Part shown: positions 2,786 through 30,312 of the stretch, piece by piece
Numbering within the stretch: position 1 is the stretch's first letter
How the letters are laid out: the number at the start of each line of letters is the position of its first letter
Virus record (IMG/VR): IMGVR_UViG_3300023276_000024
Location: 1-30,551 of that record
Reading direction: 5' to 3' (one strand)
DNA from: a virus
Length of the DNA stretch: 30,551 nt
The notes under the pieces: model-generated
Told to the model about the DNA's origin: nothing
Seen by the model: the letters and a program-made list of their open reading frames with translations, nothing else
Database searches by the model: none
Translations under genes and position numbers: made by a program

Positions 2786-2793
2786 TATATTTG
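2786..2793 (+). promoter_or_regulatory. Bacteroidota-type -7 box (TATATTTG)
   Basis: TATATTTG is a perfect match to the Bacteroidota -7 consensus TAnnTTTG. A TTG lies 21 nt upstream (2762-2764), within the usual spacing of a -33 element. Transcription should begin around 2798-2800, on or next to the GTG start of the sigma-like gene. The same TAGTATATTT core recurs at 25286 and 29100. Confidence 0.65.
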
Positions 2794-2798
2794 CAATA

Positions 2799-3275
2799 GT
2801 GAATGAAGATTTTATAAAAGAGAAAAGGCAAGTAATAGAAACAGCTTGTAAAAACATCTGTAAGCATTCCGATATTTGGAGAGATTTATCACAGGAGGTA
2901 AACATATACTTTCTAACTAATGCACTACCTGAGAATCTTAATAAGATAGACGGATTTATTTTCGTAGTGGCTTATAAGATGTTTCACTTGTCGGGTAGCG
3001 AATTTAACCGTTTGCACTTTGATAATGTTTTAAAGGAATCTACAGAACTTGACTACTTAAAAGCTGACGATATTCCGTACATTAGTAACAATGTTTACAA
3101 GGAGTATTTAGAGCAAGTTAAACAGCTAGACGAAATGGAGCGTATTTGGGTAGAGGAAATAGTAAAAAGAAACTTATCTATAAAACTATTCAGCGACCAT
3201 ACAGGAATACACAGAACCACAGCTAAGGAACGAATGAATAGTATATACGAAAAACTAAGAAAGAATAACAAATGA
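2799..3275 (+). CDS. sigma factor-like protein
   Basis: 158-residue protein that looks like a shortened sigma-70-family factor. Residues ~25-60 (DIWRDLSQEVNIYFL, then FIFVVAYKMF) resemble region 2, where host sigma factors carry E-D-L-V-Q-E-V. Residues ~125-155 (LSIKLFSDHTGIHRTTAKERMNSIYEKLRK) form a region 4-type helix-turn-helix. Similar short proteins occur in Flavobacteriia phages. It could redirect host RNA polymerase to phage promoters. The start is GTG: an in-frame TGA at 2769 blocks longer versions and the next Met is residue 61. The promoter places the GTG almost at the transcript 5' end. Alternative: a DNA-binding regulator without sigma activity. Confidence 0.65.
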   Translation: MNEDFIKEKRQVIETACKNICKHSDIWRDLSQEVNIYFLTNALPENLNKIDGFIFVVAYKMFHLSGSEFNRLHFDNVLKESTELDYLKADDIPYISNNVYKEYLEQVKQLDEMERIWVEEIVKRNLSIKLFSDHTGIHRTTAKERMNSIYEKLRKNNK

Positions 3276-7142: not shown

Positions 7143-7152
7143 CTTTAATTAT

Positions 7153-7185
7153 ACAACTAAACAATAATTTTACAATAGACAATAT
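7153..7185 (+). promoter_or_regulatory. bipartite leader, copy A (tail operon)
   Basis: ACAACTAA (7153-7160), 11 nt, then ACAATAGACAAT (7172-7183), two bases, then ATG of the tail chaperone gene. Three other sites have the same two blocks with the same 11-nt spacing (16476, 18760, 29530). It is probably the start region or 5' leader of the tail transcript. No perfect TAnnTTTG box precedes it (TTTAATTAT only). Confidence 0.65.
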
Positions 7186-7961: not shown

Positions 7962-8521
7962 GCGAAGGACTAGTAACACCACATAGCACAATTACAGAAG
8001 TACTTAAAGCATTCGGCTTAGAGATGCAAAAGGATTTAAGAGCTGAGCTAGTAAAAGACCATGCTTATGTTTCAGGAGATTTAGCCGAGCAAATAGAGTT
8101 TACTACTGTAGTAGAGGGTACTGCTTTTGTATCTTCTCTTAGATTAAAAGATTATTACGACTATGTTAATAAAGGGGTAAACGGTACTAGGTCAGTTAAG
8201 AATAATACTCCTTACTCTTATATGCAATCTAGTAAAATACCTTTTTACTTTGCTAAACAATGGATGAATGCTAAAGGTTTATTTGTAGATAAAGGAACTA
8301 CGTTAACAAGTCTAGCAGGTAATAAATACAAAGCAGGTAGTAAAGATAGTCAAGCGTTTGCAATGGCTAGGAGTTGGAAAGAAAAGGGTACAGAAGGCAA
8401 TCACTTTTATGACAAGGTAGTAACACAGGCAAGACTAGATAAGCTCAGTAAAGACTTAGCAAGTGCAGCAGCAGGAGATTTAAAGATAGCATTAACAGAC
8501 ACATTCAAAAGACTTAAATAA
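7958..8521 (+). CDS. tail completion / HK97 gp10-like protein
   Basis: 187 residues, beginning with a helix (STITEVLKAFGLEMQKDLRA) and continuing with LKDYYDYVNKGVNGTR and IPFYFAKQWMNAKGLF. The 'DYYxYVxxGvxG' stretch and length fit neck or tail completion proteins of the HK97 gp10 type that cap the tail or join it to the head. It overlaps the frameshift product (ATGA) and the next gene (TAATG). Confidence 0.6.
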   Translation: MSEGLVTPHSTITEVLKAFGLEMQKDLRAELVKDHAYVSGDLAEQIEFTTVVEGTAFVSSLRLKDYYDYVNKGVNGTRSVKNNTPYSYMQSSKIPFYFAKQWMNAKGLFVDKGTTLTSLAGNKYKAGSKDSQAFAMARSWKEKGTEGNHFYDKVVTQARLDKLSKDLASAAAGDLKIALTDTFKRLK

Positions 8522-9729
8522 TGGCAATAACTATACACGCAACTCCTAAAGACTTTGCACCTGTTTATAACAAAATGGAGTACCTAATAGAATCAACTAA
8601 TTATACAGAGCCAAACTTTGCATACTTAGTAGACATCTATATAAATGGTTCAGGAACTAAGACAGTACGCCTAAGAATACCCGTTAGACCTTCTGACAAT
8701 TACGGTAAGGTAGATATCCATAGAGTACTAGAATCTGCTCTTACTAGCGATGTAGGTAACCCACTAGGAATACTAGGAACGTATGAAGCTCCTAATAGCT
8801 CACTTTCTTATATTGTAGAATTTGGAGAGGAGTATGGAACTACAGTAGTACAATATCCAAACCTTACTACTGATATAAGTAGAAACGCTATTAATAGCTC
8901 TTTAGAGAAAGCTGAGTTTATAAATTGGGATGTAACAGAATACGAAATGGATGGTATTACTAAGAAGTTTCTAACTAATATGCCTGACAATAATAAGGTA
9001 TCTATTAACTCTCATGGATGGCTTTATTGTAAGCCGATTATACCGTTAGCTAATTGTACAGTAATTACAAAAGATAGCGCAGGAGCTACTATTAATACTT
9101 TTGAAATAAATATATCAGGAGGTGCTACAGACATTAAATTTATACCTACCGCTCCTGCTTCATTAAATAACATAGATAATGCTAATATAACAGTAGGAGC
9201 GCAACCTATTATTACATCCGATGTAGCGTCTTATGAGTTGTATTTAGTTAAATTCTTTTTACCTGCTCCAGTATCCGAAACTAGAACTTTTGTAATAGAG
9301 GAAAATTGTAAATACAATGTTAACACATTAATCTTTCAAAACAATCTAGGAGGGTTTGATAGCTTTACATTCTACTTAGGAGATATGTCTACAACAGCGA
9401 TAGAAAAAAAGGACATGAAGGTAAACGTAGATACGGTTGTGGGTACTGACATAGTCTACTCAATGAATGAGCGAGAGAAAGTAACCTACTATACAAAGAA
9501 TACACCTAGCCTTAAATTAATGTCTGACTGGATAACAGAGGAGGAGAGCAACTGGCTACTAGAGTTAATGTCAAGTCCTGAGATATATCTACAGAGTGGT
9601 AATGAATTAATAGCAGTAGCTAAGATTAAAGCGAGTAGCTACACTAAAAAGAAAGTAGTACGTGATAAGCTATTTAAACTAGAAGTAGATTTAGAGCTAG
9701 GATACGATAACTACAGACAAAGAATATAA
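8521..9729 (+). CDS. tail structural protein (tip region)
   Basis: 402 residues, mostly beta-rich with repeated short Thr/Ser/Asn strands and no signal peptide. It lies between tail completion and the 979-residue tip gene, whose ATG follows its stop without a gap. The C-terminus (WITEEESNWLLELMSSPEIYL, then KKVVRDKLFKLEVDLELGY) looks like a domain that docks onto other tail proteins. Probably a distal tail or baseplate component; the family is not identified. Confidence 0.6.
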   Translation: MAITIHATPKDFAPVYNKMEYLIESTNYTEPNFAYLVDIYINGSGTKTVRLRIPVRPSDNYGKVDIHRVLESALTSDVGNPLGILGTYEAPNSSLSYIVEFGEEYGTTVVQYPNLTTDISRNAINSSLEKAEFINWDVTEYEMDGITKKFLTNMPDNNKVSINSHGWLYCKPIIPLANCTVITKDSAGATINTFEINISGGATDIKFIPTAPASLNNIDNANITVGAQPIITSDVASYELYLVKFFLPAPVSETRTFVIEENCKYNVNTLIFQNNLGGFDSFTFYLGDMSTTAIEKKDMKVNVDTVVGTDIVYSMNEREKVTYYTKNTPSLKLMSDWITEEESNWLLELMSSPEIYLQSGNELIAVAKIKASSYTKKKVVRDKLFKLEVDLELGYDNYRQRI

Positions 9730-13492: not shown

Positions 13493-15856
13493 ATGGCAGA
13501 CGATAAAATAGCATTAAGTATAGAGATAGAAGCTGACAGAGCGCAGATGTCTCTAGGCGAATTAGAGGAGGGCTTTGATGGTTTAAGGGAGAAACTTAAA
13601 GCCACTAATAGAGGTACTGAGGAAGGTAGAAAACAGTTTAAAGAGCTATCTACTCAAATGGCTCAAACTAGCGCGGAAATTAAAAACATAGAATTAGCTT
13701 TTGAAGGATTAGACAGAGAGCAGGTTGCCAGTGAACTCGGCTCTGTGGCGGGGGGTATTTCTGATGTAACAGCTAGTCTAGTTTTGATGGGTGGCGAGAA
13801 TGAAACTATAGAGCAAATGGCAGCGAGTATAGAAACTGCTATGGCTATTTCTATGGGAATGAAGGGAGCTATAGAAGGGTTAAGCTCAGCAAAGAAACTA
13901 TATAACAATCTACTTGAAAACGGTAAGATTGCACAAATAAAAGATACTATAGTAACCTCAATAGCTACAGCTAAAACTTGGCTTTTAAATACTGCTAAGA
14001 AAGCAGCTGCTACGACTACAGGAGTATTAACTGGAAAGATTAAAATAGCAACTGTAGCGACTAGAATATGGAATGCTGTTTTAAAAGCTAATCCTTTAGG
14101 GATATTGGTTACTGTAATTGTAGCAGCAGGTGCAGCCTTATTAATATTTGCTAAGAACACAGGAAAAGCAGCTAGAGAACAAAAGGCACTAGCAGATAGT
14201 TTAGAGGCTGTTTCTGGGGAGATTACTTCTGTATATGAGGAAGTTAATAAAATGGAAAGTTCTTTTGAATTGGCGAGGAAGGGAGTAATAAGTAAAGAGG
14301 ATGCACTTAAAACTTATAACGAAACAATAGGGCAAACAATAGGAGAGGCAGAAACTTTAGAGGAAGCAGAAGCTAGATTTGATAAAAATACAGGAGCGTA
14401 TATAGAGGCAGCTATTGCAAGAGCCCAAGCTCAGGAACTTATTAAAATGGCAGCAGAGGAGCAGACAGCAGCACTCTTAGCAGGAGAGGACGACAATAGA
14501 GCATGGTACGAAAGTACGATAGGTTTTATAAACGATGCAGGAGCAGCCTTTGCAGATTACTCCACTTTAGGAGTTTTTGAATTAGGTAAGGCGAGCGATA
14601 AATTAAACGACAAATTAAAAGAGGGAGCTACTGAAAGGTTAGTAAATGAGAAGGAGGCCAATGCACTTTCTTATAAAGAACTAGCTAAGAGTTTAAATGA
14701 GAAAGCTGCTTTAATTGAAAAGGATAATGGGTTTATATCTGATGCAGCTAAGAAGGTAGCAGATGATAAAGCTAAGAAGGAAGCAGATGATAAAAAAGAA
14801 GCTGAGAGGAAAGAAAAAGAAAGAGCAGATGCAAGAGCAAAAGAAAAAGAAAGACTAAGATTAAAAGAAATTGCAGATGCTAAAACTTTAGCAGAATTTG
14901 AGGAGGAACAAGCAAAGACAAAGATAGCACTTATCCAGGATGAAGGAGAACGGAAAAGGGCAGAGATAGATTATAACACCCAGTTAGAACTGGAGGCTTT
15001 AGAAAAGAAAGGGCAATTAACTTTTGATGCTCAGATGTTAATAGCTCAAAAAAAGAATAAAGCATTAGCAGACTTAGAGAAAGAGGAGGACGCTAAAAGA
15101 TTTGCAGCAGAGCAGGAAGCTCAAGTAAAAAGAGATGAATACGATAAACTACTATTTGACGCTAAGGTAGCAAATGAGGTAGAGGAAACAGAAAGACAAA
15201 GACTACAGATAGAGGAGGACTTTCAAAACAACTTAGCAACTTTAGAGGAGCAAGGGCTTTTAACAATGGAGCTAGAGTTTGAATTAATGTACGCTAAAGA
15301 ACAGGCTTTAGCAGATATTGAAAAGGAGTTTAGAGAGAAAGCAGCAGCAGAGAAACAAGCTCAAAGAGATAAGGACTTTGCACTAGCTACAGCATTAGTA
15401 AGCTCTTTATCTGCTTTAAACGATGCAGCCTTAGCAACAGACTTACTTAATGCAGCAGGAGACGAGGAGAAAAAAGAGAAAATAAGAAAGGCAAGTTTTG
15501 AAAGACAGAAAAAACTTAATATAGCAATGGCTGCAATTAATGGAGCGCAAGCAGTACTAGCAGGATTTGCTCAGGGAGGTTTACCGATGGCTATAATAGC
15601 AGGAGTTACAGCAGCAGCGCAACTAGCAGCAATAGTAGCAACTACTTATCAAGGTGGAGGTAGTGCAGCAGAAGTAGAAACACCAACTCAAGAACTTAGA
15701 CCCGATGGAGCAGGTGGCGGTGGCGGTGGTGTACAATTAAGCCCAGTAAGTAACACTAGCACAATATTAGGAAATCAGCAAGTATTCGTAACTGAAACAG
15801 ACATAACAGAAACACAAAACAACGTTAGCGTAATAGAAGAAAGCGCAACTTTTTAA
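13493..15856 (+). CDS. tail tape measure protein
   Basis: 787 residues. N-terminal helical region (MADDKIALSIEIEADRAQMS, then long helices to residue ~90), a hydrophobic membrane-type segment near residues 200-222 (LGILVTVIVAAGAALLIFA), a long charged coiled coil from ~405 to 640 rich in AEKER repeats, then a second hydrophobic part (AVLAGFAQGGLPMAIIAGV) and a glycine-rich linker. This is the tape measure pattern: it sets tail length and is thought to help DNA cross the membrane. At about 1.5 A per residue it fits a tail of roughly 120 nm. Confidence 0.85.
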   Translation: MADDKIALSIEIEADRAQMSLGELEEGFDGLREKLKATNRGTEEGRKQFKELSTQMAQTSAEIKNIELAFEGLDREQVASELGSVAGGISDVTASLVLMGGENETIEQMAASIETAMAISMGMKGAIEGLSSAKKLYNNLLENGKIAQIKDTIVTSIATAKTWLLNTAKKAAATTTGVLTGKIKIATVATRIWNAVLKANPLGILVTVIVAAGAALLIFAKNTGKAAREQKALADSLEAVSGEITSVYEEVNKMESSFELARKGVISKEDALKTYNETIGQTIGEAETLEEAEARFDKNTGAYIEAAIARAQAQELIKMAAEEQTAALLAGEDDNRAWYESTIGFINDAGAAFADYSTLGVFELGKASDKLNDKLKEGATERLVNEKEANALSYKELAKSLNEKAALIEKDNGFISDAAKKVADDKAKKEADDKKEAERKEKERADARAKEKERLRLKEIADAKTLAEFEEEQAKTKIALIQDEGERKRAEIDYNTQLELEALEKKGQLTFDAQMLIAQKKNKALADLEKEEDAKRFAAEQEAQVKRDEYDKLLFDAKVANEVEETERQRLQIEEDFQNNLATLEEQGLLTMELEFELMYAKEQALADIEKEFREKAAAEKQAQRDKDFALATALVSSLSALNDAALATDLLNAAGDEEKKEKIRKASFERQKKLNIAMAAINGAQAVLAGFAQGGLPMAIIAGVTAAAQLAAIVATTYQGGGSAAEVETPTQELRPDGAGGGGGGVQLSPVSNTSTILGNQQVFVTETDITETQNNVSVIEESATF

Positions 15857-15867
15857 AATATAAGAAT

Positions 15868-17091
15868 ATGGAAAAGATAGAAGTATTTGAGTTGGTAATA
15901 GACACCGACGATGAAAGCGGAGTTACTGCCATCGCACTAGTAGACCAACCTGCAATAGAGTCAAACTGGATGGCGTTCAGTCAACAGACAGAACATAAGT
16001 TTAAAGTAGCTGACGAAGAGAAAAGAACTATAGAAGGTTATTTTATGGTAGCTGACTTATTAATCCCAAGAATAGACCCAGACACAGGAGCTAAATTCTT
16101 TGTTAAATTCTCAGGAAAGACTATAGAATTAATAAGAGAGAAGCAATCAAAGAACGGATTAACTAACAACTTTAATTTAATGCACGACCCTAGACAAATA
16201 GCTGAGGGTGTATTCATGTTAGATAACCTTATAATTGATAACGAACGCGGAAAGGTAGCACCTAACGAATTTGAGAAAGTACCTAACGGTTCTCTTTGGG
16301 GTTCTGCTAAAGTTGATAACGATGAAATTTGGGAGCAAGTAAAGAACGGAACTTTTAAAGGTTTTAGCGTAGAAGGGATGTTTAAACAACTTGAGCCTGT
16401 AACAATGGATGAAGATGTAATTAACAAAATAATCAAAACTATACAAGACTTTGAAAAAAGTATAGAGGATAATGTACAAGTAACAAATAAACAAACAATA
16501 GATAATATGAGCAAAGAAACATTAGACAAGGTTAAGAAATTAATCTTTGGAGAAGAAACAGTAGAAACACCTACTGAAGTAATCGAGGTAAAATTAATGA
16601 GCATGGAGCTTGCAGATGGCACTATGGTAAACATCGAACCTGCATTAGAAGTTGGTGCAATGGTAACTGTAGAAGTAGAGGGTGTAGTAGCTCCAATACC
16701 AAACGGTGAATATCCTTTAGCAGATGGAATGATTATAACTATTTCAGAAGGTGCTATTTCAGACATCAAAGAAGTAGAAGCAGAGGAAGAGGAAGCAATG
16801 GAAACAGAAGCAACTCCACAAGCAACTACTGAAACAGTAACAGAAGCTAAGATTAGAAAGATTATCGAATCTACTGAAACAGTTTTCGCTAAGGTTGAAA
16901 CTTTAGAAACTGAATTAGAAACTGTAAAAGCAGAATTTGCTAAATACAAAGAGGAAAGCGATGCAAAAGAGAAAGCAATGTTTTCAGCAGTAGAGGAGTT
17001 AGCAACAGAAGCTAGTGTAGCACCAGTTAAGAAAAAAAGAAGTGGAGTAATATCTGCTAAAAAGAAATCAATTTTTACAGTAAACAAATAA
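15868..17091 (+). CDS. prohead protease fused to scaffold (XkdF-like)
   Basis: 407 residues. Residues 1-~175 match XkdF-type prohead proteases (peptidase S78_2): SGVTAIALVDQPAIES near the start, RTIEGYFMVADLLIPRID, FNLMHD with H106, and GFSVEGMF with S167 as likely catalytic residues. Residues ~214-407 are acidic, coiled-coil and scaffold-like (EAEEEEAMETEATPQ, then LETVKAEFAKYKEE), ending in a basic tail. The protease would cut the scaffold and perhaps capsid during maturation. An internal in-frame ATG (16507) preceded by the leader motif suggests that the scaffold is also made alone. Confidence 0.85.
   Translation: MEKIEVFELVIDTDDESGVTAIALVDQPAIESNWMAFSQQTEHKFKVADEEKRTIEGYFMVADLLIPRIDPDTGAKFFVKFSGKTIELIREKQSKNGLTNNFNLMHDPRQIAEGVFMLDNLIIDNERGKVAPNEFEKVPNGSLWGSAKVDNDEIWEQVKNGTFKGFSVEGMFKQLEPVTMDEDVINKIIKTIQDFEKSIEDNVQVTNKQTIDNMSKETLDKVKKLIFGEETVETPTEVIEVKLMSMELADGTMVNIEPALEVGAMVTVEVEGVVAPIPNGEYPLADGMIITISEGAISDIKEVEAEEEEAMETEATPQATTETVTEAKIRKIIESTETVFAKVETLETELETVKAEFAKYKEESDAKEKAMFSAVEELATEASVAPVKKKRSGVISAKKKSIFTVNK
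16476..16506 (+). promoter_or_regulatory. bipartite leader, copy D, inside the protease gene
   Basis: ACAAGTAA (one base from the ACAACTAA of the other copies), exactly 11 nt, then ACAATAGATAAT and ATG at 16507. It lies within coding sequence but in front of an in-frame Met, so it is not explained by codon needs alone. The major capsid gene and a terminator lie downstream, consistent with an extra promoter or translation start for scaffold plus capsid. Confidence 0.6.
16507..17091 (+). CDS. free scaffold protein from an internal start
   Basis: Predicted 194-residue product that starts at Met214 of the fusion (MSKETLDKVKKLIFGEE). It contains only the acidic, helical part of the protein, as expected for an assembly scaffold. 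The start is chosen because leader copy D ends directly at this ATG. Nested scaffold genes in protease genes are known (lambda C/Nu3). Expression is inferred, not seen. Confidence 0.55.
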   Translation: MSKETLDKVKKLIFGEETVETPTEVIEVKLMSMELADGTMVNIEPALEVGAMVTVEVEGVVAPIPNGEYPLADGMIITISEGAISDIKEVEAEEEEAMETEATPQATTETVTEAKIRKIIESTETVFAKVETLETELETVKAEFAKYKEESDAKEKAMFSAVEELATEASVAPVKKKRSGVISAKKKSIFTVNK

Positions 17092-17106
17092 TAAAAAAAA
17101 AGAATT

Positions 17107-18048
17107 ATGGCATTTGACGTAACAGCATTATCAGCATACATAGAAGACCAAGACTTTCCATTAATTGCACAGATGCAGGCGACAGGAGGATTGGCAGAAG
17201 TAGCTAACATTCAAACAGGAATTAAAGGCTCTTCTAATTTACAATTCTTAGACACAGGAGTTACATTTGGTAGCGATTCATGTGCTAGAACTCCATCAGG
17301 AAATGCAGTATTTTCACAAAGAACAATCACAGTAGGAGCTATCGCAGTATCTGAAGATTTATGTGTAAAAGACTTAAACGGATATTGGGCGCAAGTTCTA
17401 GTTAAAAAAGGAGCAGCAGGAGAAGAGGAACTTCCTATGGAGATTGAAGCGGTTTACATGGCAAAGAAAATGAATGCAATGGCTAACGCTTTAACTTTAG
17501 CAGACTTTCAAGGAGACACAGCTTCAGCAACTAACAACCTATCTTACTACGATGGTCTTTTGAAAATTGTAGATGCAGGAGCACCAGTAGATGGAAACAC
17601 AGGAGCTGTAACAGTAGCGACTACTATTTCAACTTCTAACGTACTTGACATCTTGGATGGAATGTGGGAGTCTATTCCTGACAATATCTCAGATGCAGAA
17701 GATTTATCTTTATGGGTACCGACATCAGTTTACAAAAAATATGTAGTAGCACTTAAAAACGCTAACCTATTTCATTATTCAGCAGATGGAGAGCAAGTAA
17801 AACTTTATGGAACTAACGTAGCTTTACGTTCTACAGTTGGACTTCCAGGAGCAGCAGGAACAGAGAGAATGATTTTAACTAGAGATTCTAACATCACTAT
17901 CGGAATGGATGGAGATGCTGACGAGGATGCAATGAAAGTAAGACTAGACCCTGTTTCTGAAAAAAGCATTTTCTTTGACGTTACTTTCAAAAGAGGCGTA
18001 CAGTTAAATTTCATTGACGAAGTAGTAGAATTTACATTAGTACCTTAA
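17107..18048 (+). CDS. major capsid protein
   Basis: 313 residues, placed right after the protease-scaffold gene and before a strong terminator, as expected for the most abundant product. The N-terminal helix (ALSAYIEDQDFPLIAQMQ), a long E-loop-like region, the spine-like helix (IEAVYMAKKMNAMANALT) and C-terminal strands (SIFFDVTFKRGVQLNFIDE) fit an HK97-like fold. No delta domain cleavage site is obvious. The leader is an A-rich run before ATG. Confidence 0.8.
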   Translation: MAFDVTALSAYIEDQDFPLIAQMQATGGLAEVANIQTGIKGSSNLQFLDTGVTFGSDSCARTPSGNAVFSQRTITVGAIAVSEDLCVKDLNGYWAQVLVKKGAAGEEELPMEIEAVYMAKKMNAMANALTLADFQGDTASATNNLSYYDGLLKIVDAGAPVDGNTGAVTVATTISTSNVLDILDGMWESIPDNISDAEDLSLWVPTSVYKKYVVALKNANLFHYSADGEQVKLYGTNVALRSTVGLPGAAGTERMILTRDSNITIGMDGDADEDAMKVRLDPVSEKSIFFDVTFKRGVQLNFIDEVVEFTLVP

Positions 18049-18072
18049 TAAGTACTTTAACAATAACTTAAG

Positions 18073-18105
18073 AAGGGGTGGGTAAAATACCTTACCCCTT
18101 TTTTT
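18073..18105 (+). terminator. intrinsic terminator after the major capsid gene
   Basis: AAGGGGT (18073-18079) pairs with ACCCCTT (18094-18100), with inner GGTA/TACC pairs and a 7-T tract (18099-18105). It is one of the strongest hairpins in the window and lies 24 bases after the capsid stop, so it should close the scaffold-capsid transcript. Confidence 0.85.
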
Positions 18106-18697: not shown

Positions 18698-18718
18698 TTT
18701 TAAACAACTAATTAAGAG

Positions 18719-18748
18719 AGGGCAGTATTAATTTATTGCCCTTTTTTT
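18719..18748 (+). terminator. intrinsic terminator before the portal operon
   Basis: AGGGCA (18719-18724) pairs with TGCCCT (18737-18742), with a 12-nt loop and a T tract (18742-18748). It separates the 18179 gene from leader copy B, which begins 12 bases later. Confidence 0.8.
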
Positions 18749-18759
18749 GTTTATACTAT

Positions 18760-18790
18760 ACAACTAAGTAAAAAAATTACAATAGATAAT
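18760..18790 (+). promoter_or_regulatory. bipartite leader, copy B (portal operon)
   Basis: ACAACTAA (18760-18767), 11 nt, then ACAATAGATAAT (18779-18790) directly before ATG 18791. It starts right after a terminator, which supports a promoter or transcript start here. TTATACTAT precedes it in the place where copy C has TATATTTGT. Confidence 0.7.
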
Positions 18791-18964
18791 ATGGAACTAA
18801 AAAAAGAGTTTTTAAAAGGCGGTACAGTTTGGCACAAAGTAGTCGGGCACGTTACCATAGTGAACGATGAAAAACAGTTTGCGAAGTACAAAAAATTAGG
18901 GTTAGATGTTTTTAAAGTTGAGAAAAAAAAGAAGGAAAAGAAAGACAAAAGCGATTCTGAATAA
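18791..18964 (+). CDS. small basic protein (57 aa)
   Basis: MELKKEFLKGGTVWHKVVGH, then DEKQFAKYKKLGLDVFKVE and a Lys-rich tail. First gene of the portal operon, under leader copy B, and coupled to the next gene by TAATG. It may be a head completion or small structural protein; family unknown. An ORF on the other strand is rejected because this one is linked to both leader and next gene. Confidence 0.65.
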   Translation: MELKKEFLKGGTVWHKVVGHVTIVNDEKQFAKYKKLGLDVFKVEKKKKEKKDKSDSE

Positions 18965-19359
18965 TGCCAATTTTAATAAACCAAAATACAACAAACAGTC
19001 TGACGTTTACACTAAAGGAAAAGACTACATTATCTTCTCCAGTCTACCTATTTCAATTTAGGAACGTAACAGAGAAAGTAAGTTACTATTGTATAATGGC
19101 TGACATCTCTTTATATAAAGATAGGTATAACGAATTTGTATTTACAGAAGGAACTAACCTACCATTAGTAGGCGAGCTTATACTAGGAGCAGGCGGACAA
19201 TATGAGTACTTTGCTTATGAGCAAACTAGCACTACTAACCTAGACCCTACACTTGCAACTGGCTTAGTAGAAAGCGGTCTAATGACACTAGAGAGAGGTA
19301 GTACTACTTACTCAGAACATACGATAGACCAAACATATAAAACACATCAGGTAACATGA
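18964..19359 (+). CDS. hypothetical virion protein
   Basis: 131 residues, beta-rich (NSLTFTLKEKTTLSSPVYLF, then EYEYF-like strands). The 'LTLxEKxTLxxPxYLFxF' pattern recurs in Bacteroidota phage structural proteins as I remember them. It overlaps the previous gene (TAATG) and the portal (ATGATGA). Probably part of the head or neck. Confidence 0.6.
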   Translation: MPILINQNTTNSLTFTLKEKTTLSSPVYLFQFRNVTEKVSYYCIMADISLYKDRYNEFVFTEGTNLPLVGELILGAGGQYEYFAYEQTSTTNLDPTLATGLVESGLMTLERGSTTYSEHTIDQTYKTHQVT

Positions 19360-21275
19360 TGAACAAAGAAAATATTTTAATCTTTAACTTTGAAGCTAAT
19401 AAGCCTCCAGTATTTAAAGAGGAAAGAGGTAAAGACTATATTGTATATGGCACAGAAGCACCTTGGAAAAATTTATATCCAGACTATTTAGTTGAGCTTT
19501 ACAATACTTCAGGAAAGCACAATGCTATAATCAACGGTAAGACTAACTACATAAGTGGTAGAGGTTGGAAAGTAGACCAAACTGTAAGAACACTACAGGA
19601 CAAAGTAAAGCTAGAAAACTTTATTAATAATCCTGGAAACGATTCACTATTTGAACTTACTAAAAAGATAGTAAAAGACAATGAGCTTTATGGCGGTTAT
19701 GCTTTGGAGGTTATTGTAACTAAAGATGGCAAAGGATTAATTATTAATCATATTGATTTTGGATATATTAGAGTAGGAGTAGAGGAGGATACGTACTTTT
19801 ATACAGACGATTGGGCAAGTAGAAAGCCTACATCAAATGATGACTTTGAAACATTAATCCCGTTCCCTTTTGATGGTTCAGCAGTAAGAGGACAGAGATA
19901 CATTTGCTACTATAAGAGCTATAGACCAAACTTAAAAGAATACCCTTTACCAAATTACGTGGCAGGAGTACCGTATATAAGTGCGGACTATGAAGTAGCT
20001 AACTACGTGTTAAACAATACTAAGAACGGTTATTCAGGCGGCACGATTTGGAACTTTCACAATGGGCAACCTACTCAAGAAGCTCAAGCATATATTAAAA
20101 AACAAATTAAGAATAAGCATCATGGTTCAAATAATGCAGGTGAGCCAGTTATAATCTTTGATGACGGAAAGGACAAAGGAGTAGAAATAATTTCTACTAA
20201 CCCAAACGGTCAAGATGACAAGTTTATTAACTTAAACCAACAGATACAAGATGAAATCTTTACAGCTCATGGAGTAGATGCTTCTGTATTTATTAAAACA
20301 ATAGACACAGGGTTTAGTAATAACGCAGATGAATTAAGAGTAGCTATTGAGGCAATGAATAGCTCATACATCGAACCTAACCAACGATTATACGAAAAGC
20401 TATTTAATGACTTTGTTGTATTACTTGGAATGCCTAGTGGTCTTAAAATAGAAAAGGTATTACCTATCTCTACTCCACTATCTGAAACTGCTTTAACTGC
20501 TGTAATGACTACAGCCGAAATAAGAGATATGGCAGGCTTACCGCCTTTAGCGGGTGAGGAGAAATCAGCAGGAGGAGCAGCAGACAAACTAGCTACACTA
20601 TCTCCTTTGGTTGCGACTAAGGTATTAGACAAGATGACTGATGAAGAGATTAGAGGCTTGATTGGTTTAAGAGGTAGAGGTCCAGTAGTAACAGAAACAG
20701 AAACTAGGTTTAGTAGTGATGAAATAGACTTAGCATTTAGTAAGATAGGTTATACAGATGACCAAATAGAAGTTATAGAGGTATTCGATATTGACTATAA
20801 CCCTTTCGACTTTGCGGATATGTCAGCAATAGATAGCCAAATAATAGACATCGTTAAAGCTAATCCCAAAACTACAGTACCTGAGATAAGCGACCAAGTA
20901 GGAGAAACTCCTAGCGAAGTTCAAAAGAGAATAGATAGACTAGTTAAGAATGGATTGTTAGACCTACAGAAAACTAAAATAAAAGTAACTGAGGAAGGGG
21001 AGCAGGAAGTTTCAGAACTTATCACAGTTTACAAATACCAAAAGAGAGCCGACATAAGCGGTAGCGAAATAATCGCAGGTACTAGAGATTACTGTAGAGA
21101 TATGTTAGCTAGGGATAAGAGCTACACTAGACAGGAGCTACTAGGAATGGTTAACGATTTTGGACAAAGTACATTTACTCACAGAGGAGGATGGTGGAAT
21201 AGGAACGGAAACAGAGTGCCTTACTGTAGGCACGTATGGTCTGCTAGAACGGTCAAACTTAAACAAAATGCTTAG
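19356..21275 (+). CDS. portal protein with winged-helix and MuF-like C-terminal domains
   Basis: 639 residues. Residues ~1-390 are the portal: EAPWKNLYPDYLVELYNTSG at the front, a central ETL-rich and GFSNNADELR region, and helices that would line the DNA channel. Residues ~490-540 (SQIIDIVKANPKTTVPEI, then VQKRIDRLVKNGLL) form a winged helix. Residues ~576-635 (TRDYCRDMLARDKSYTRQE, then GGWWNRNGNRVPYCRHVW) resemble the core of MuF (SPP1 gp7) minor head proteins. Either ATG at 19356 or 19359 may be the start. It is unusual that both extra parts are fused to the portal. Confidence 0.8.
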   Translation: MMNKENILIFNFEANKPPVFKEERGKDYIVYGTEAPWKNLYPDYLVELYNTSGKHNAIINGKTNYISGRGWKVDQTVRTLQDKVKLENFINNPGNDSLFELTKKIVKDNELYGGYALEVIVTKDGKGLIINHIDFGYIRVGVEEDTYFYTDDWASRKPTSNDDFETLIPFPFDGSAVRGQRYICYYKSYRPNLKEYPLPNYVAGVPYISADYEVANYVLNNTKNGYSGGTIWNFHNGQPTQEAQAYIKKQIKNKHHGSNNAGEPVIIFDDGKDKGVEIISTNPNGQDDKFINLNQQIQDEIFTAHGVDASVFIKTIDTGFSNNADELRVAIEAMNSSYIEPNQRLYEKLFNDFVVLLGMPSGLKIEKVLPISTPLSETALTAVMTTAEIRDMAGLPPLAGEEKSAGGAADKLATLSPLVATKVLDKMTDEEIRGLIGLRGRGPVVTETETRFSSDEIDLAFSKIGYTDDQIEVIEVFDIDYNPFDFADMSAIDSQIIDIVKANPKTTVPEISDQVGETPSEVQKRIDRLVKNGLLDLQKTKIKVTEEGEQEVSELITVYKYQKRADISGSEIIAGTRDYCRDMLARDKSYTRQELLGMVNDFGQSTFTHRGGWWNRNGNRVPYCRHVWSARTVKLKQNA

Positions 21276-29520: not shown

Positions 29521-29528
29521 TATATTTG
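29521..29528 (+). promoter_or_regulatory. promoter box TATATTTG of the structured RNA
   Basis: Perfect TAnnTTTG box, 49 bases after the SSB stop. Transcription is predicted to start within TACAACTAA directly downstream. It is the only one of the four leader copies with a perfect box. Confidence 0.7.
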
Positions 29529-29529
29529 T

Positions 29530-29560
29530 ACAACTAAGGAAATTTATTACAATAGATAAT
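29530..29560 (+). promoter_or_regulatory. bipartite leader, copy C, ending at ATG-TAG
   Basis: ACAACTAA (29530-29537), 11 nt, ACAATAGATAAT (29549-29560), then ATG (29561-29563) immediately followed by TAG. Unlike the other copies it does not open a gene. The ATG-TAG lies on the 5' side of hairpin P1. Confidence 0.7.
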
Positions 29561-29608
29561 ATGTAGGCTGAACCGCAAAAGCAGCTACACATAAATATTA
29601 ATAAGATT

Positions 29609-29664
29609 AAACCCTTTAATGGTTAGTAGAGTTGCGGTCTCGAAAGCTATTAAAGGGTTTTTTT
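29609..29664 (+). terminator. terminator hairpin of the structured RNA
   Basis: 12-bp perfect stem (29609-29620 with 29649-29660) around a structured 28-nt inside, followed by a T tract to 29664. It ends 12 bases before the ATG of the replication gene, so it can attenuate that operon. Confidence 0.75.
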
Positions 29665-29676
29665 ATACACAATATT

Positions 29677-30312
29677 ATGGCAAAAGACTTACCTTATTTT
29701 AAGTTCTTCTGTTCCGAGTGGAACGATGGAGATATAACCCTAGAAGATTACGAGATACAAGGATTATTTATTAATATCTGCTCCTATTACTGGAGTAGTG
29801 GTTGCGAAATTTCACTACAAAAACTAAAAAAAAGATTCAGAAATCAGGATAAAAACATAAATTATCTGTTAAAAACTGAAATAATTAAGAGAAAAAATAA
29901 AAATATTTCTATAAATTTTTTAGATGAACAATGGATTGAAAGACAAACCAAAAGCAGTAAGAACTCAGCAGCAGCAAAGGCTAGATGGGATAAGCAAACG
30001 CAATGCGAACGCAATGCGAACGCATCAGAAATGCAATGCGAAAGTGATGCCATTAAGATAAGAGAAGAAAAGAAAAGAAAAGATAAGATAAGAGAAGAAC
30101 TTTTTAACTCTCAAGTTTGGAAGGAAGGAATAGCTAAATTAAATAAATGTAAATTAATTGAGGTAGAAAAGTTTTTAGTTATATTTTTGGAAGGTCAAGA
30201 ATTAGATGACAATTTAGACAGAGATTTACAGGAGGTTAAAAAACACTTTCGAGCGTGGTTTAAAAAACAAGACTTTAAATCTGACAAACCAAAAAGAACT
30301 ATAGCACTATGA
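29677..30312 (+). CDS. replication initiator-like protein (DUF4373/Lin1244-type)
   Basis: 211 residues starting MAKDLPYFKFFCSEWNDGDI, the typical front of DUF4373/Lin1244-like phage replication proteins with a winged-helix domain (residues ~1-90). A charged linker with KSSKNSAAAKARWDKQ, a Cys/Asn repeat and KIREEKKRKDK follows, then a helical C-terminal part (WKEGIAKLNKCKLIEVEKFL). A TTG start at 29632 would run through the terminator stem and is rejected. The linker DNA contains iterons and a purine tract like an origin (see 30000). It stands before the primase gene. Confidence 0.75.
   Translation: MAKDLPYFKFFCSEWNDGDITLEDYEIQGLFINICSYYWSSGCEISLQKLKKRFRNQDKNINYLLKTEIIKRKNKNISINFLDEQWIERQTKSSKNSAAAKARWDKQTQCERNANASEMQCESDAIKIREEKKRKDKIREELFNSQVWKEGIAKLNKCKLIEVEKFLVIFLEGQELDDNLDRDLQEVKKHFRAWFKKQDFKSDKPKRTIAL
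30000..30099. repeat. candidate phage replication origin: iterons plus purine tract
   Basis: GCAATGCGAAC at 30000-30010 and 30011-30021 (tandem), a partial copy at 30022 (GCATCAGAA), and GCAATGCGAAA at 30033-30043. They are followed by ~45 bases almost all A and G (30055-30099) with AGATAAGAGAAGAA given twice. Iterons followed by an AT-rich, one-sided purine stretch inside the initiator gene is the arrangement of the lambda origin in gene O. Confidence 0.55.

Follow-up and report, generated by a model that had tools for sequence, protein, structure and literature searches.

A promoter-like element inside a phage protease-scaffold gene, and the probable nested scaffold start that it precedes

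In herpesviruses, the UL26/UL26.5 locus combines a protease-scaffold fusion with a separate short transcript for the scaffold alone. Amongst phages, nested scaffolds are known from lambda C/Nu3, as the original prediction for the locus studied here had pointed out, and also from Mu I/Z; in Mu-like phages, the protease gene contains a Shine-Dalgarno site for the internal scaffold start (PMC4378225). Our locus shares the nested arrangement of the lambda and Mu genes; however, their internal start is translational, whereas here it is a promoter-like element that lies in the coding sequence, and the protease is of another kind, belonging to the S78_2 (XkdF-like) family. The herpesvirus comparison has its own limits, as UL26/UL26.5 belongs to a eukaryotic virus and uses a polymerase II promoter, whereas the element described here is two-part and of bacterial-sigma type, and our proposed short mRNA would include the capsid gene as well. 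Phages 7-11 and phiEco32 resemble our proposal in that a phage sigma factor reads a few phage-specific late-gene promoters, those of 7-11 being two-part (PMC8948821). However, these promoters differ from ours in both letters and spacing, and those described stand upstream of genes, with none inside a protease gene. The seawater Nonlabens phage P12024L has a homologous protease-scaffold protein (~28% identity), its own sigma-like gene and its own repeated two-part element, but this element stands before the whole protease gene, and none was seen at the internal boundary. A literature search, with most subscription journals outside its coverage, found no phage scaffold with an internal promoter, and no published promoter maps for marine Bacteroidota phages. 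Nested scaffolds as such are already known (lambda, Mu, herpesvirus); the phage-type promoter that we propose inside the gene is what is new.

The window, by which we mean the whole stretch of DNA analysed, comprises the 30,551 bases of a virus record and carries a terminase gene (5893), tail genes, the protease-scaffold fusion, a capsid gene and a portal gene (19356); the features relevant here are collected in Table 1. As its relatives are contigs from an environmental virus collection and, at a greater distance, P12024L, the virus is most naturally read as a phage of marine Bacteroidota. Amongst cellular genomes, a scan turned up only three relatives, one of which (L133) is a full fusion. 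The homologue search used six seed peptides, and one of them, NKQTIDNM, covers the element copy inside the protease-scaffold gene (hereafter copy D), which gives the sample a mild bias towards sequences that bear it. Rfam and tRNA searches across the window gave no match, and a scan of the window for sigma70-type promoters was uninformative, with 37 found vs 31 expected. As a side observation, the portal protein (19356-21275) contains a winged-helix (AsnC/MarR-type) domain near residues 489-541, which is unusual for a portal.

Table 1. Positions in the window of the features discussed in the text.
Feature	Position	Strand	Remarks
Host-type (Bacteroidota -7) box TATATTTG before the sigma-like gene	2786..2793	+	repeat family D3
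Sigma-factor-like gene, candidate reader of the element	2799..3275	+	L130 relative; PHROG match
Element copy 5' of ORF 7186	7152..7185	+	
Fused protease-scaffold gene, 407 aa	15868..17091	+	directly 5' of capsid gene
Strongly constrained GACTTTGAAAAAAGT tract upstream of copy D	16447..16461	+	possibly an UP-like A-tract
Copy D, upstream half, TACAAGTAA	16475..16483	+	-35-like
Copy D, downstream half, ACAATAGA	16495..16502	+	-10-like; ATG 4 nt further on
Nested scaffold frame, Met214 to stop, 194 aa	16507..17091	+	aligns with the separate L079 gene
Capsid protein gene, second gene of the proposed transcript	17107..18048	+	PHROG_1623 virion structural protein, E 9e-7; position after protease-scaffold
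Intrinsic terminator, would close the proposed scaffold and capsid transcript	18070..18105	+	-18.1 kcal/mol, z -3.1
Element copy 5' of ORF 18791	18759..18792	+	directly after terminator 18714-18747
Element copy 5' of the non-coding RNA	29529..29562	+	ATG, then TAG at once
Non-coding RNA: 5' hairpin, terminator hairpin, kissing loops	29561..29666	+	z -3.9

The protease part of the fusion matches Peptidase_S78_2 (PF14550) over residues 92-174 (E 1.6e-8), its 35.1 bits exceeding the curated cut-off of 24 and so placing it amongst the XkdF-type proteases, and the gene also matches the PHROG head maturation protease (E 3e-6). The scaffold is encoded in frame by the 3' part of this gene, ahead of the capsid gene and in the manner of lambda Nu3, and its ATG (16507-16509) forms codon 214 of ORF 15868-17091. 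That copy D lies within the protease coding sequence and leads to an in-frame ATG at the boundary between protease and scaffold, as originally predicted, is borne out by the sequence itself, by the close relatives, 32 of 32 of which keep the Met214 ATG at this domain boundary when aligned, and by one relative (L079, 38% identity) in which protease (8229-8822) and scaffold (8863-9384) are two separate genes, split exactly at Met214. The alignment of the L079 scaffold begins with its own first Met, which falls on Met214 (MYKEAIEKIKAVLFGE against MSKETLDKVKKLIFGE; BLASTP E 8e-9). At the place aligned with Met214, P12024L has Met-Ser, and a Met also marks the protease/scaffold boundary in the Flavobacterium prophage L133. 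A long helix is predicted at residues 324-379 of the fusion, in a low-confidence model (pLDDT 46) that is too poor to decide anything. The terminator expected after the capsid gene is also real (Table 1), and is kept in relatives at 15 of the 15 loci printed. Two further observations concern the same gene: the protease homologues L071-L076 have ~100 extra residues in the protease part, 5' of the nested start, and an antisense open frame of 390 aa (16038-17210) runs across the protease-scaffold gene, probably as an effect of composition.

The element reads TACAA(G/C)TAA-N11-ACAATAGA and occurs four times in the window (7152, 16475, 18759 and 29529), with a spacer of 11 nt in every copy. Copy D spans 16475-16502, one base upstream of the start at 16476 given in the original prediction, and consists of TACAAGTAA, 11 nt and ACAATAGA, followed by TAAT and then the ATG. 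When scored with a matrix built from the non-protease copies only, the four sites reach 21-28 bits, the next best site in the window lying at ~7. Amongst 741 kb of fetched DNA (records, some of them overlapping), the spacer is exactly 11 nt in 115/115 sites with two mismatches or fewer, and at the same threshold no site has a spacer of 6-10 or 12-16 nt. An apparent spacer-8 form of the element was rejected as a register artefact, being the same sites read in another register. In several relatives, the copy corresponding to that at 7152 begins right behind the terminase stop codon and takes up all the space to the next ATG, and in two relatives a copy is found 5' of the tape-measure gene. Two conserved halves at a fixed spacing are found before several transcription units, which is what would be looked for in promoters of a phage sigma factor.

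Could copy D nonetheless have arisen merely because the codons are A-rich and the linker peptide is conserved, with only the fusion protein being made? It had been argued that codon needs alone would not be expected to produce it, and this argument turned out to be weak: when the codons were shuffled synonymously, with amino-acid sequence and codon usage preserved, 13% of the shuffles (520 of 4000) put copy D back in place from the protein of the window. As a single sequence cannot show codon needs to be insufficient at such a rate, we replaced the codon argument by comparative tests. Each of the 40 homologues examined from the clade keeps the element or a variant of it at the same place. On a tree of 35 sequences, its five core third-codon positions show two changes in total against ~26 expected (gene mean 5.3 each; P 5e-5), whereas nearby codons vary and the spacer has changed freely. 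The protein, moreover, changes while the DNA is kept: codon 205 alternates between GTA and CTA (V/L) and codon 206 between ATA, ACA, AGT and AAT (I/T/S/N), and the letters of TACAA(G/C)TAA are retained throughout. Internal and intergenic copies have also changed alike, as in L068 the internal copy shares an altered right half, ACAATTAATAGTATG, with the copy before the 18791 homologue, and the corresponding pair in L069 reads ACAATAAATA(A/C)CATG in both copies. Constraint is also visible upstream of the element, with the lowest synonymous-change windows of the gene starting at codons 192-200 and positions 16453-16459 unchanged in 35 sequences. With the L079 gene split at the same Met, we give a mere by-product almost no credence: the comparison across relatives settles the question on the level of sequence, and copy D is more than a codon accident. 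Indeed, as copy D is kept in ~40 relatives, as the L068 and L069 copies are altered alike and as L079 is split at Met214, the nested start at Met214 is very probably real.

What kind of signal, then, does the element represent? The original prediction described a leader giving Met214 its own signal and feeding both scaffold and capsid. The nested start with a signal of its own is strengthened by conservation and by L079, but the label of a leader is probably wrong, and the element looks more like a promoter. The alternative is that it acts in RNA as a translation signal, allowing internal initiation at Met214 on the long mRNA with no separate transcript. Such a signal would fit with copies that mostly stop a few bases short of an ATG, with the scarcity of synonymous changes both just behind Met214 and behind the first codon of the whole gene, and with the known nested phage scaffolds (lambda Nu3, Mu Z), which use internal translation starts (PMC4378225). 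It fits poorly with the geometry, as the invariant 11-nt spacer, with halves 20 nt apart, suits a protein binding to DNA, whereas the distance from ACAATAGA to the ATG varies amongst copies (4, 5, 6 or 7 nt, and longer at L135 15060). Nor does every copy serve a reading frame: downstream of the 29529 copy stand ATGTAG and, behind it, a structured RNA that closes with a terminator, no frame opens there in ten relatives, and L168 has no ATG at all. The start of the capsid gene, a product needed abundantly, has no element copy, the 18759 copy directly follows a terminator, and a sigma-like gene travels with the element. For these reasons, we consider a translation signal unlikely and favour a DNA promoter over a leader. 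It counts against the promoter reading that the spacing from TACAAC to ACAATA is shorter than that of a standard -35/-10 pair. In bacteria, promoter boxes ~10 bp ahead of the ATG have been described for leaderless genes (PMC3160421), and a proven precedent is offered by the sigma factor of phage 7-11, which reads two-part late promoters whose starts lie 6-9 bp from the element (PMC8948821).

The candidate reader is the protein of ORF 2799, whose assignment as a sigma factor is indirect. It matches a PHROG sigma factor over residues 94-156 (E 0.0016), has no sigma match in Pfam or NCBIfam and falls short of the sigma-70 family cut-off; a full-length relative with 34% identity (L130) matches TIGR02937, sigma70-ECF, over residues 3-152 (E 1.5e-5, below the curated cut-off). 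Sigma factors are amongst the top fold matches of the predicted model at a non-significant E >1, but this low-confidence model (pLDDT 65) is too poor to settle the matter, and no relevant hit came from searching the PDB with a profile of the sigma-like family. The gene is itself preceded by a TATATTTG box of the host (Bacteroidota -7) type. The sigma-like gene is found on at least 8 contigs that also carry the element, and the L130/L135 phage, whose sigma relative has diverged to 34% identity, keeps TACAAC and the spacing and has a changed downstream half, ACCATTAT, at two sites, at one of which the ATG is much further away. This change favours reading by a sigma factor, and we infer that the 2799 protein reads the element. 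Could a phage activator or repressor, working with the host polymerase, bind the element in place of a phage sigma? The element would still mark a transcription start within the gene, a protein of this kind would go well with halves separated by about two helical turns, and the indirect sigma assignment leaves room for it. The co-occurrence of sigma-like gene and element, and the changed downstream half that accompanies the diverged sigma relative, speak against an activator or repressor, to which we allow only a slim chance.

Some details of these more distant phages deserve mention in their own right. In L135, the two copies (14234 and 15060) read TACAAC-N-ACCATTAT-NN-AGTAT, the ATG distance being the longer at 15060. 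P12024L also speaks for a sigma factor as reader: it contains six copies of a two-part element with another spelling, AAACAA-N-CGTTA(A/T)TA (146, 2998, 5379, 24739, 25978 and 27579), where 0.04 are expected, and its own sigma-like gene matches sigma70-ECF (E 5e-7); this element is unannotated and ends ~12 nt before ATGs.

The 29529 copy stands before a conserved non-coding RNA that precedes the replication gene at 29680. The loops of this RNA are complementary (ACCGCAA/TTGCGGT), 5/7 of its kissing pairs show compensatory, both-side changes in relatives, and it has no match in Rfam. Hairpin and T-run structures are also seen before the same replication gene in more distant phages (L173, L179, L182 and L186). 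A host-type TATATTTG box (29521-29528) lies directly upstream of the element copy and is conserved in all ten relatives, so that the RNA could start from this box, which counts against a promoter role for the element at this site. Possibly, box and element form a double promoter, used early by the host polymerase and late by the phage sigma.

Returning to copy D, the element, its conservation, its fixed spacer, the Met214 boundary and the terminator are all there to be seen in the DNA. We think it probable that this copy is a phage-class promoter, read via the 2799-3275 sigma-like protein and starting a scaffold and capsid mRNA near the Met214 ATG. RNA polymerase with this protein would read copy D from inside the protease coding sequence, and the mRNA would begin at the ATG or a few bases from it, a 5' end that we place from geometry, making the message leaderless or nearly so. 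It would encode both scaffold (194 aa) and capsid protein and run as far as the terminator 18070-18105. The full-length protease-scaffold fusion, on the other hand, would come in small amounts from the long upstream transcript, such that the nested promoter would supply an excess of free scaffold over protease, coupled to the shell protein.

Capsid assembly raises the general question of how a single phage gene can give much more scaffold than protease. Tentatively, and at a little short of an even call, we posit that marine Bacteroidota phages evolved a nested scaffold under a phage-sigma promoter of their own, with a leaderless scaffold and capsid mRNA, as a solution similar to that of UL26/UL26.5 and with promoter letters that co-evolve with the phage sigma. 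If this is true, these phages would have arrived at the herpesvirus solution by means of a bacterial promoter embedded in protein-coding DNA, a promoter that would be visible from conservation alone, given ~40 sequenced relatives and a distant relative with a split gene. For the marine Bacteroidota phages, this gives a candidate late promoter and sigma factor, as well as a set of candidate leaderless starts.
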